Assembly (NCBI RefSeq): GCF_029910235.1
Contig: NZ_CP112874.1
Location: 124,001-188,000, forward strand
Reading direction: 5' to 3'
Source: Pseudanabaena galeata CCNP1313
GTDB lineage: Bacteria; Cyanobacteriota; Cyanobacteriia; Pseudanabaenales; Pseudanabaenaceae
Length of the DNA: 64,000 nucleotides
The notes under the pieces were generated by a model. The model ran no database searches. It was given only the letters and a program-made list of their open reading frames with translations, and was not told the origin of the DNA. The position numbers were made by a program, and so were the translations under genes. Within the stretch, counting starts at the first letter, position 1, and each line of letters opens with the position of its first letter. Below, in pieces: positions 59,784 to 64,000 of the stretch.

Positions 59784-61478
59784 ATGAGTCAAACATCTGG
59801 GCAGTCAGTAGGGGAATCAGTCTGGAAAAGACTGCGTCATGGCAACATTGCAACCTGCGAAGAAGCATTACGATTTTTAGTAGATATTGAAGGCAATGTG
59901 CATTTGGCTTGGCTTGACCAAGATCTAACCCATCGGTTTTTTCGCGAATTTGAAGACCGTAGTATCTTGCAGCCCGTAATTCCATTACTACTATGGCGAA
60001 ATTGTTTTTATATTGGTAGTCCCCAAGCTCTCAATGATGACCAAATCAAGCTGATTAGTGATCGCACCTTGACTGAGATCAGAGTGATCAGGATTACTAC
60101 CGATAGCTATCGCAAATGGTTCCGTCGCCAAAATATTCCTAATCCTAATCAGATTCATTCAGCGCAGGCGATCAATCCTCTCACCGGAGAAACTGAGCAG
60201 GTTGATATTGGCGAAGTGACTGACCTCTATCTAGCGCAAGCTGTCGATCAAACTCGTCGCATTAATGCCCTGATCTCGATCGCTTTGCAGCATCGTGCCA
60301 GTGACATTCACCTAGAGCCAACGCCCACAGGTTTACGAGTTCGCTTTCGCATTGATGGTATTTTGCGTGACATCAAAACCCTGCCCCTTGAAATCAGCCG
60401 CAAAATGATTGTCGCCCTCAAGGTGATGTCGGATATGGATATCGCCGATAGTCGTCGCCCTCAAGACGGACGCATTGGTAAAGAATACACCAGTGAAGAA
60501 AGTCTACACCTCAATCTAGATATGCGGGTGAGTACTTTACCCTGTGTCTGTGGTGAAAAAGCAGTAATTCGATTGTTGCCCCGTGACAATCCTTTTTCTA
60601 ATCATTTAGAATGTTTAGGATTTAGCGATCGCACCCTCAAAATTTATGACAGTTGGCTACGACAACCCCAAGGACTCATTATCATGACTGGCCCCACGGG
60701 TTCAGGTAAAACCAGTACTCTTTACACCAGCCTGCAAGCGATCGCCCAAGAACATGTAAACGTAATCACCGTTGAAGATCCCGTTGAATACATCTTGCCA
60801 AATATCACCCAAACTCAAGTTTGTGAACCCGCAGGCATGACCTTTGCGGCGGGATTGCGGGCGATTTTACGCCAAGATCCCGATATTGTAATGGTGGGTG
60901 AAGTTCGCGATCCCGAAACTGCGGAAACTGTCGTCAGAGCGGCGCTAACTGGGCATTTGGTATTATCAACAATGCATACGAACGATGCCGCTAGCGCCAT
61001 CCCACGCCTCAAAGATTTAGGACCAGATCCAGGGTTGATTAGTGATGCTTTATTGGGTGTGGTCGCTCAGCGACTAATTCGCAAAAACTGTCCCCATTGC
61101 TCATCGCCCCATTATCCTGCCTTGTCGGAACTGCAAGCCCTGAGACTGGATCGTGATGATATTGATCCCAGTCATTGGCGCAAAGGTAAAGGTTGTGAAA
61201 AATGTTTTTTCACTGGTTATATTGGGCGAGAAGCTGTTGTTGAATTGATTGATATTGATGATGCTTTTCGGCAAATGATTTATGAAGGGACAATCACCCA
61301 AATGAATCGTTATCTTAATGAAATTGACTTTAATTCATTCCGACTTGCCGCGATCGACAAATTAAACGCTGGTATAACCACAACCGAGGAAGTTTTGCGG
61401 GTCTTACCCCGTAGCGCTATATATCGAGTGAACTCACCTACGTCTCGCCAAGCTCATATCAAGGCTATTAACTCATAA
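59784..61478 (+). CDS. GspE/PilB-type secretion ATPase
   Basis: Hexameric traffic ATPase of the type II secretion/type IV pilus class. The N-domain is short; then ASDIHLEPTPTGLRVRFRID (pre-core), Walker A MTGPTGSGKTSTLYTSL, Asp box ITVEDPVEYILPNITQTQV, Walker B DPDIVMVGEVRDPETAETVV and His box LVLSTMHTNDAASAIPRLKD. Zinc cysteines are in KNCPHC and GCEKCFFTGYIGREAV. At 564 residues it is shorter than cyanobacterial PilB, lacking much of the N-terminal MshEN-like part. Function as PilB paralogue or GspE is open. Confidence 0.9.
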   Translation: MSQTSGQSVGESVWKRLRHGNIATCEEALRFLVDIEGNVHLAWLDQDLTHRFFREFEDRSILQPVIPLLLWRNCFYIGSPQALNDDQIKLISDRTLTEIRVIRITTDSYRKWFRRQNIPNPNQIHSAQAINPLTGETEQVDIGEVTDLYLAQAVDQTRRINALISIALQHRASDIHLEPTPTGLRVRFRIDGILRDIKTLPLEISRKMIVALKVMSDMDIADSRRPQDGRIGKEYTSEESLHLNLDMRVSTLPCVCGEKAVIRLLPRDNPFSNHLECLGFSDRTLKIYDSWLRQPQGLIIMTGPTGSGKTSTLYTSLQAIAQEHVNVITVEDPVEYILPNITQTQVCEPAGMTFAAGLRAILRQDPDIVMVGEVRDPETAETVVRAALTGHLVLSTMHTNDAASAIPRLKDLGPDPGLISDALLGVVAQRLIRKNCPHCSSPHYPALSELQALRLDRDDIDPSHWRKGKGCEKCFFTGYIGREAVVELIDIDDAFRQMIYEGTITQMNRYLNEIDFNSFRLAAIDKLNAGITTTEEVLRVLPRSAIYRVNSPTSRQAHIKAINS

Positions 61479-61985: not shown

Positions 61986-64000
61986 ATGCTTTTAATCACA
62001 GTTGGGACAGAACAATATCAATTTAACGCGCTAATGCATTGGATAGAATTGTTGTCTAAATACCAACTAATTAACGAAGATGTATTAGTACAATATGGGG
62101 CTTCAACGCATTTACCTGATGGGGCTAAAGCTTATCGAAATTTGTCTGAGCAAGAATTTTTGAATTTTGTAGAAAGCTCTAACTTAATCATTAGTCACTG
62201 TGATGAAGATATTGCCCAACTTTTAGAAGATAAAGACACGCCTTATGTTCTTGTACCTCGTTTACATAGGTTCAGAGAATTTATTGATAATCATCAAATG
62301 GAAGTTGCTGATGACTTTGAACGTCGAGGCATTCCGATCGCTAGATCCCCTGGGGATCTAGTCAAATTTATCAAATTACGACAGACATCCTCGGTAAGCT
62401 CTAAAGTATCCGAGGCTCAATTATGTGAATATTTAAAAGATCGATATAAATCTCAAAAAAAGTTGATGCTTGTTTGTGCTGCGGGAGGATACTTTCGCTA
62501 TATGCAAAGCCTCCAAGGCTTTTGGGAAAACTATAACGAGCGTCTGTGGATATCAGTACGAACCAGTATCACTGAGCGCGAGATCGAAGATAGTGATCGT
62601 TATTGGGGATACGTTCCTATAAAAGATAACTTACTAAATATTATTCGTAATTTAGTTCTAGCTTTTAGAGCCGTACCGCGCTATAAACCAGATCTAGTTA
62701 TTTCTACAGGTTCAGGGTTTTCTCTTCCTTATCTATTAATTGCTAAGTTTTTGTGTGGGAGTAAAGTCGTTTTTATCGAATCGAAAACGCGCTTTCAAAA
62801 AATAGGTTTACCAGCGTGGGTACTCATGAAATTAAGAGTGCTTGACCTCATTGTGGTGAGAAGTAAGGCGATCGCAAATTTGTATCCCGAAGCTGTCTAT
62901 ATCCCAGTTAGTGACAGTCTTAGTGATAAAACTAAGCAAAAGCGGGATTATAAACAAGCTTCAATAGTCACCTTTGATGAAGTCGCATTTATATTTAGTC
63001 CTGAACGGCTCGTGTTTTCTACCGCTAGAGAATTTTTGCTTGATTTTCAATCTATTTGCAATATTGATGAATCCTATAAAAAGGTTGTGATCGATATGAG
63101 TCACACCACCGTTATGGATAGTGCGGGGCTAGGCGCTTTAACCAATTGCCTACGAATGGCTACAGCAAACAAGACTCAATTAGCTTTGTGGAGCGTTAGT
63201 GATGCTGTCAGTGCTTTGATTGGATTATCTTCAATTAGTAATTTATTTATAGTCGAGCCAACTAGCAACACGTTTAGATTTTCTAATTCCATCCAAAGAA
63301 CCAAAGTTAGCAATATTACGATGTTTGGTTTATTGCTATTTCGGACTCAGCTATTACTCAAAAAGATTCCTATACTCAGAATCTTCTATCCCATTCTCAA
63401 ATTTCTTTTCCCTTTCATTGACATTGATCCTAGCGTGCCTGTGCATCCTTCAGTACGTAATCCCATTAAAAGAATCATTGATATAGTTGGTTCTTTAATT
63501 GGGCTAAGTTTTACTGCTGTTCTATTTGTTCCGATCGCTCTTGCGATTATGCTAGAGAGTAAAGGTAATGTTTTGTTTGGGCAAATTCGTTGTGGGCTAT
63601 TGAGCAAGCCGTTCAAAATTTGGAAGTTTCGATCAATGGTAAAGAATGCCGAGCAACTTAAGATCAAGGTGGAGAATCAGGTTGAGGCAAGTTCAAATGT
63701 TCCTATTATCGGTGGAGATGATACGACAATAAGTGGCAAATTTTTTAAGAATGCCGATGACCCACGTGTAACTAGAGTTGGTAAATTCTTACGGAAGACT
63801 AGTCTAGATGAATTTCCACAATTTTGGAATGTCTTAGTTGGAGATATGAGCTTAGTAGGAACTCGTCCTCCCACCTTTGATGAGATTAACTCCTATGAAT
63901 TAGAAGTTGAGTATCACGATGAGCGCTATACAGAATGGAATCGTCTAGATGTTAGACCAGGGATTACTGGTGTGTGGCAGGTAAATGGACGATCTAATGT
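61986..64000 (+). CDS. Alg13-like/Alg14-like/STAS/sugar-phosphate transferase fusion (3' end outside window)
   Basis: I translated this frame codon by codon: 671 complete codons without a stop, open at the window end. Residues 1-~150 are Alg13/PssE-like ([40 protein letters not shown]). Residues ~157-325 are Alg14/PssD-like ([46 protein letters not shown]). Residues ~335-430 form a STAS domain ([20 protein letters not shown], with D378-S379-A-G-L-G). From ~490 a polyprenyl-phosphate sugar transferase follows: [12 protein letters not shown] helix, [62 protein letters not shown] lies 8 bases before the ATG. It would start a lipid-linked glycan and add the second sugar. Confidence 0.88.

Follow-up and report, generated by a model that had tools for sequence, protein, structure and literature searches.

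Both the fusion of initiating sugar transferases (PGTs) to other domains and the post-translational control of such enzymes are known kinds of arrangement. Sugar-transferase fusions are said, by O'Toole 2021, to be among the bifunctional PGTs, and in large PGTs an additional domain directly precedes the catalytic one. In the Bi-PGTs, as in the protein described here, extra functional domains are fused to the PGT catalytic domain (PMC10942596, in the parts consulted), and the excerpts of PMC12802240 available to us name sugar-modifying and regulatory domains, receiver domains included, as fusion partners of PGTs, attribute to WbaP a cytoplasmic domain with a dimer-forming hairpin, and call control of the start of surface polysaccharides at the level of the enzyme poorly known. 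The same excerpts describe EpsW–EpsZ of Myxococcus xanthus, in which, as proposed here, an initiating PGT is under post-translational control by a signalling protein. Partner-switch components have been tied to polysaccharides in two further organisms: in Nostoc punctiforme a STAS protein, an RsbW-type kinase and a phosphatase (HmpU/HmpV/HmpW) are linked to motility and polysaccharide, with a downstream effector called undefined in the consulted sections of PMC6495340 and PMC8256260, and in Vibrio fischeri (SypA/SypE) a STAS protein phosphorylated on its D-S serine governs polysaccharide-dependent biofilm (PMC4517449 and PMC10120452, likewise in part).

We compared these systems with a gene at the end of the window, by which we mean the whole stretch of 64,000 nucleotides analysed from Pseudanabaena galeata CCNP1313 (contig NZ_CP112874.1, positions 124,001 to 188,000, forward strand), and concluded that its product is probably a partner-switch-controlled initiating transferase, a variant of the PGT fusions. 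The frame is open for 671 codons inside the window (61986..63998); in the whole genome it runs from ATG to a stop ending at C1:188127 and encodes a complete protein of 713 aa, carrying in one chain Alg13-like, Alg14-like, STAS and PGT domains, in that order (Table 1). The original prediction, made from the letters of the window, of four domains in a single frame of at least 671 codons was thus borne out, both by the complete frame and by Pfam, NCBIfam and fold matches. A paralog (L007) with 51% identity over its whole length, also of four domains, lies at a second place in the same genome. That second place, together with four-domain frames in 25 of the 26 genomes of the genus, rules out a fusion of separate genes by assembly or sequencing error, a reading to which we give practically no weight. 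Another initiating-transferase gene of the same genome (L016:1156-3089; C1:1935116-1936683) is broken by a transposase gene.

Table 1. Features of the four-domain locus, in positions of the window, and the kinase group discussed in the text.
Feature	Residues	Position	Strand	Evidence or remark
T2SSE (GspE/PilB-type) ATPase gene		59784..61478	+	Frequent neighbour of window-type paralog
Four-domain gene		61986..64000	+	713 codons in genome, 671 in window; stop ends 127 bases past window end
Alg13/PssE-like domain	1-134	61986..62387	+	NCBIfam PssE and Pfam GT28_C, both under cut-off
Degenerate donor loop SHCDEDIA	70-77	62193..62216	+	Paralog has AHCGEGST
Alg14/PssD-like domain	158-310	62457..62915	+	Pfam Alg14, PssD, MurG N-half fold
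GGY replacing GGH motif	167-169	62484..62492	+	Alignment of four-domain proteins
STAS domain	328-432	62967..63281	+	Pfam; fold match to TM1442, RsbV, SpoIIAA
S379	379	63120..63122	+	Aligned to phosphorylated serine of SypA (D-S-x-G)
Hydrophobic segment between STAS and PGT		63303..63431	+	Alignments; helical in AlphaFold2 model
Initiating sugar transferase (Bac_transf) domain	490-713	63453..64000	+	Pfam E 8.6e-64; cut by window end
Asp-Glu pair of TSLDEFPQ	608-609	63807..63812	+	Alignment of four-domain proteins
HWG/QWG kinases				L087, L089, L090, L091, L130, L148, L151, L176, L177, L186, L205

The domain search upheld three of the four predicted assignments over the Pfam cut-offs, namely Bac_transf (PF02397; residues 495-706, 214.8 bits, profile positions 1-178 of 179), STAS (residues 332-427, E 2.5e-10, 40.5 bits against a cut-off of 22.6) and Alg14 (residues 217-306, E 1.2e-7, 32.4 bits against 27); Glyco_tran_28_C (residues 1-130, E 0.005) reached 17.3 bits and stayed under its cut-off of 22. 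The NCBIfam matches were all under their cut-offs: PssE at residues 3-134 (E 5.7e-14, 52.3 against 120), PssD at residues 161-305 (E 1.8e-19, 70.5 against 110) and ant_ant_sig (35.3 against 53.45). The Alg13 half is only weakly backed by Pfam and NCBIfam in the window copy; all four Pfam cut-offs are passed by the paralog, by two window-type relatives (L083 and L113) and by a protein of a sister genus (L115). The D608-E609 pair, which we take to be the catalytic dyad of the PGT, is kept in 45 of the 45 readable four-domain proteins (46 rows, one of which, L114, is cut off before the site).

An AlphaFold2 model of the 671 residues in the window had a mean pLDDT of 75.8 and a pTM of 0.50 (a second model, of L181, had a pTM of 0.39). 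Residues 319-429 of the model match anti-sigma-antagonist STAS structures (1vc1, Z 16.5; RsbV 6m36, Z 15.8), the closest folds being TM1442, RsbV and SpoIIAA at Z 15.2-16.5; residues about 157-308 match the N-half of MurG (Z 14.5-14.8) in a fold comparison that hardly tested the Alg13 part, and Foldseek matched the model to PglC (E 4.4e-7). The hydrophobic segment between STAS and PGT is present in the aligned four-domain proteins and not in the aligned separate STAS-PGTs. The STAS domain, of the partner-switch type, has a serine after the Asp (D378-S379-A-G), and the candidate serine noted in the original prediction thus occupies the acceptor position, taking as acceptor the first serine after the Asp (S56 of SypA), as read from the SypA primers in the consulted part of PMC10120452. 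With functional domains fused to a monotopic PGT domain, the protein is a fusion Bi-PGT as the term is defined in the accessible text of PMC10942596.

We surveyed 386 sampled cyanobacterial genomes with a profile built on the three N-terminal domains and obtained matches in 74; within this sample, a frame that was long enough for four domains and matched all three occurred in the window's genus only. At least one four-domain protein was found in 25 of the 26 genus genomes, the exception being a genome that is 82% complete, and two were found in 18. Two sister genera also have four-domain proteins, and in a third (G408) the frame is cut by a contig end, so that the predicted order recurs in 46 distinct proteins of Pseudanabaena and sister genera. 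In a tree using 81 of 148 rows, the 22 four-domain rows form one branch (support 100/99), within which the operon-type and window-type proteins are two inner clades. Other cyanobacteria have separate genes, often Alg14, Alg13 and STAS-PGT in a row, or STAS-PGT alone, and Alg13-STAS-PGT fusions also exist among them. The arrangement had been called unfamiliar; its parts, however, are not peculiar to the window gene, the separate rows being widespread and PGT fusions being a described class. In another genus of the same family, two Alg13-STAS proteins (L117:7523-8836 and L118:5050-6375) have a PGT recognizable over a short stretch only. Rhabdochromatium marinum, a purple sulfur bacterium, has a STAS-PGT as well (L195:6851-7993), perhaps acquired through gene transfer; no kinase was found near it in the fetched stretch.

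The operon-type paralog heads an exopolysaccharide operon, followed by genes for OPX (Poly_export), a Wzc-like protein (called on a GNVR match under its cut-off), a Wzy-like membrane protein (assigned by position, having no Pfam match), GT4, Wzx (a Polysacc_synt flippase) and GT2. The window gene is without these operon partners, and most of the fetched window-type loci share other flanking genes, namely the T2SSE ATPase, a 94-aa ORF and trpD, the last of which was not found in L104, L111 and L112, where the stretches continue for several kb. In two genomes (L085 = L183; L182) the operon-type paralog has an ATPase gene with 59% identity in its neighbourhood, and ATPase genes near both types of paralog hint at a trace of segmental duplication.

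The two paralogs differ in the motifs of their N-terminal halves. Residues 70-77 of the Alg13 half form what we assume to be the donor loop, with a role as in MurG. In the window protein the glycine-rich loop of this half is lost, HCDEDIA standing in place of HCGEGST, and HCDE replaces HCGEG in all 22 window-type proteins. Likewise, the histidine of the Alg14 GGH motif, essential in Agl24 and MurG according to the consulted part of PMC8993221, is kept in none of the 22 (GGY in 20, GGA and GNY in one each), whereas the operon-type clade has GGH. Since neither of these two motifs is intact, the hand-over of the product of step 1 to step 2, which had been proposed for the window protein, is unlikely there, although the proposal fits the operon-type paralog.

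These losses, and the missing operon partners, would also be expected of a decaying pseudogene of the operon paralog whose frame has stayed open by chance, but the values of dN/dS contradict decay. For eight window-type copies the median was 0.072 in Alg13, 0.110 in Alg14, 0.068 in STAS and 0.045 in PGT (only pairs with dS within 0.05-1.5 were kept: per domain, 18-24 of the 28 window-type pairs and 4-13 of the 28 operon-type pairs). Purifying selection in every domain, the presence of 22 window-type copies throughout the genus, mostly in a shared gene neighbourhood, and the intact Asp-Glu pair of the PGT make a pseudogene very improbable. Because the Alg13-Alg14 pair has lost these residues and is nevertheless under purifying selection, its role is most likely that of a scaffold or binding module without catalysis, within a PGT that would still add the first sugar; as judged from the sequences, the selected window copy probably starts a glycan without adding the second sugar. 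In two other genomes, Alg13-like genes without the glycine loop adjoin STAS-PGT (L092:9095-9574 and L093:9740-10294), and no Alg14 was found in either fetched stretch; these lone degenerate genes fit a non-catalytic Alg13-like accessory.

The prediction had further proposed partner-switch control, with a kinase or phosphatase gene to be looked for in the flanks of the window gene. Neither a kinase nor a SpoIIE gene was found near the window locus; the proposal itself is sustained by RsbW-type kinase, lone STAS and SpoIIE genes near the STAS-PGTs of relatives. We examined two sets of STAS-PGT loci, one of 70 neighbourhoods from genomes outside the order of the genus (with two locus pairs of identical transferase ends, and excluding L096, which has no STAS-PGT), and one of 36 loci outside the four-domain group, obtained with 38 STAS-less PGTs among the best 80 loci of one scan; because one locus (L187 = L091) sits in both sets, the counts are not additive. 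An RsbW-type (HATPase_c_2) kinase gene lies within 3 kb of the separate STAS-PGT in 25 of the 70 and 9 of the 36 loci, compared with 0 of the 38 PGTs that have no STAS (for 9/36 against 0/38, Fisher p 8.5e-4). In 23 of the 70 loci and 9 of the 36, the kinase gene follows 3' in the same orientation, no more than 1 kb away, a 3' flank of at least 1 kb being available at 70/70 loci of the first set, 33/36 of the second, 36/38 STAS-less loci and 28/29 four-domain loci. The two frames overlap by an identical 14 bases in seven loci, four of which are one close group in the tree, and examples of overlap are found in Microcystis wesenbergii FACHB-1317 and Planktothrix PCC 11201. Loci without a kinase within 3 kb number 45 of 70 and 27 of 36, many in one Nostocaceae clade, and no kinase was found within 3 kb at any of the 29 fetched four-domain loci, the window's included (three genes were fetched twice, as L178/L110, L179/L086 and L183/L085, and 22 of the 29 loci had at least 3 kb on both sides).

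The D-S-x-G acceptor motif is kept in 69/69 and 36/36 of the STAS-PGTs, the first set counting 69 rows rather than 70 because the STAS and PGT frames of L177 are split. It is missing from one lone STAS (L017) and, in the own genome, from the STAS domains of three long frames, which by their length we took to be SulP transporters. Among the 22 window-type proteins the acceptor reads DS in 14, DG in seven and DT in one. The window copy has the form DSAG, as does TM1442; in SypA this form (S57A) lowered function, according to the consulted parts of PMC4517449 and PMC10120452. The serine missing from eight of the 22, and the position of the STAS domain just before the PGT domain, would suit a purely structural STAS, serving as a dimer contact or in membrane-side packing and taking the place that an additional cytoplasmic domain has in WbaP and other large PGTs, without any phosphorylation switch. 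The kinase linkage (25/70 and 9/36, against 0/38 without STAS) and the acceptor motif in every STAS-PGT row of the two sets speak against this explanation, and we regard it as unlikely, if worth keeping in mind.

The kinases were found with a profile built from three seeds and one round of its own hits, and were confirmed by Pfam in L087, L092, L154, L018 and L208, with PF13581 at the same places among the matches listed; a length filter excluded two kinase-like ORFs (396 and 401 aa), one near L184 and one near L185, that of L184 being a histidine kinase. Pfam likewise confirmed a kinase, a lone STAS and a REC-SpoIIE protein in L087, a kinase and a REC-SpoIIE protein in L092, a PAS-SpoIIE protein in Laspinema (L206) and SpoIIE in L259. 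We assert SpoIIE at these four loci only, because our in-house 'PP2C' profile also catches receiver domains; the other SpoIIE-like neighbours are called by that profile and by their lengths. The linked kinase family is represented in 66 of the 67 STAS-PGT genomes (those passing the threshold of the 386-genome survey), compared with 53 of the other 319, counts that ignore phylogeny, and in 25 of the 26 genus genomes. The kinases beside Alg14-Alg13-STAS-PGT have HWG or QWG in the region of the ATP lid, where most others have RGL, and this subgroup may, from its sequence, bind STAS without phosphorylating it.

In the own genome, one kinase (L018) scored 135 bits against a profile of 34 linked kinases, and two others scored 23 and 21. 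In a wider search L018 scored 133 bits; the unlinked kinases of other genomes reached 174 bits, and the linked ones ranged over 156-231, several of these having been used to build the profile. The separation is limited, since the two ranges overlap between 156 and 174 bits, and L018, scoring like the unlinked kinases rather than the linked ones, may be a general HmpW-type kinase. The same genome has a lone STAS beside a REC-SpoIIE gene (C1:2782587-2783876).

Genes for Alg14, Alg13, STAS-PGT and the kinase lie together in seven Nostocales clusters (L087, L091 (= L187), L130, L148, L151, L186 and L205), all but L148 with a lone STAS; SpoIIE-like genes are found next to these clusters. Within the fetched stretches, these clusters share with the Pseudanabaena operon OPX (48-52% identity), Wzc (46-55%), Wzy (52%, one locus), GT4 (45-48%), Wzx (50-52%) and GT2 (61-63%). 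Because homologs of the operon genes are found in the switch-linked cluster, the operon-type fusion most likely takes the place of its separate genes. HpsS of Nostoc punctiforme was considered, from a table of matches, as a candidate STAS-PGT; in three Nostocaceae loci, no neighbours matching hpsT and hpsU were recognized by eye.

A hybrid kinase gene at the end of the switch-linked cluster for exopolysaccharide adjoins an H-NOX gene in five loci of four distinct genomes (L186, L187 = L091, L205 and L177). In L186 the H-NOX gene is at L186:13961-14530 (-), and Pfam matched HNOB in this gene and HNOBA in the kinases of L186 and L087. The stretches of L087, L130 and L151 have the same hybrid kinase but yielded no H-NOX. 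The adjacency suggests an input of nitric oxide or oxygen to the initiation of the polysaccharide; such an input was also considered for Pseudanabaena galeata CCNP1313, in whose genome no H-NOX was found.

Taken as a mechanism, an RsbW-type kinase would bind the STAS domain, and kinases with the usual ATP lid would phosphorylate its serine, changing the activity of the PGT; a lone STAS protein, reset by a SpoIIE phosphatase, would compete for the kinase and so free the enzyme. In Pseudanabaena the kinase would act from another locus, and the Alg13-Alg14 pair of the operon-type paralog would add the second sugar. On balance we favour the view that the protein is the initiating PGT for a Wzx/Wzy-type exopolysaccharide, gated by its partner-switch STAS domain, and the kinase genes near STAS-PGTs suggest that cells may control slime production directly at the point where it starts, turning it on or off there.

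The signal might instead run in reverse: the STAS domain of the PGT would be the antagonist, the enzyme, through its lipid or sugar occupancy, would titrate the RsbW-type kinase, and a sigma factor or other target would read glycan initiation. It is the STAS protein that controls the kinase in canonical systems, as described in the consulted part of PMC10120452, and kinase linkage also occurs without polysaccharide genes near (L154, L171 and L175). In the most complete sets, however, a lone STAS with a SpoIIE phosphatase is already the antagonist and the cluster is biosynthetic, and no sigma factor was noticed in the neighbourhoods read by eye; we consider the reversed direction rather improbable. 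Returning to control of the enzyme by the switch, a more extended proposal is tentative, and we would put its chances somewhat short of even: that a whole partner switch, from sensor kinase through REC-SpoIIE, lone STAS and RsbW-type kinase to the STAS of the transferase that would load the first sugar on the lipid carrier, is wired to an enzyme and not to a sigma factor, and that in Pseudanabaena this target also acquired the second-step enzyme by fusion, an enzyme that later became non-catalytic in one paralog. In some Nostocales the sensor kinase of this pathway would come with an H-NOX haem sensor gene.

Compared with the Bi-PGT class, the window protein has three extra domains, a partner-switch STAS among them. 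It differs from the PssD/PssE and CpsF/CpsG pairs, both halves of which are present at its N-terminus, in being fused, with Alg13 before Alg14 where the separate genes have Alg14 before Alg13, and in a window paralog that appears catalytically degenerate. EpsW–EpsZ relies on a separate phosphorylated response regulator and not on a fused STAS with an RsbW-type kinase, as far as the consulted text of PMC12802240 goes, and the word STAS is absent from the main text of that article. A STAS-PGT with a linked RsbW-type kinase, or the four-domain form, was not found in the open literature searched, subscription papers being mostly outside its range. HmpV is a lone STAS, and no link to a STAS-PGT appears in the consulted parts of PMC6495340 and PMC8256260; SypA, too, is a lone STAS, with a target called unknown, and SypE joins kinase and phosphatase in one protein (PMC4517449 and PMC10120452, in part). 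A STAS domain on an initiating transferase, with an overlapping kinase gene, offers a concrete, testable candidate target for the partner switches of biofilm and motility and, if the proposal is true, the switch-wired transferase is the kind of effector that has been missing for HmpU/V/W and possibly for SypA.
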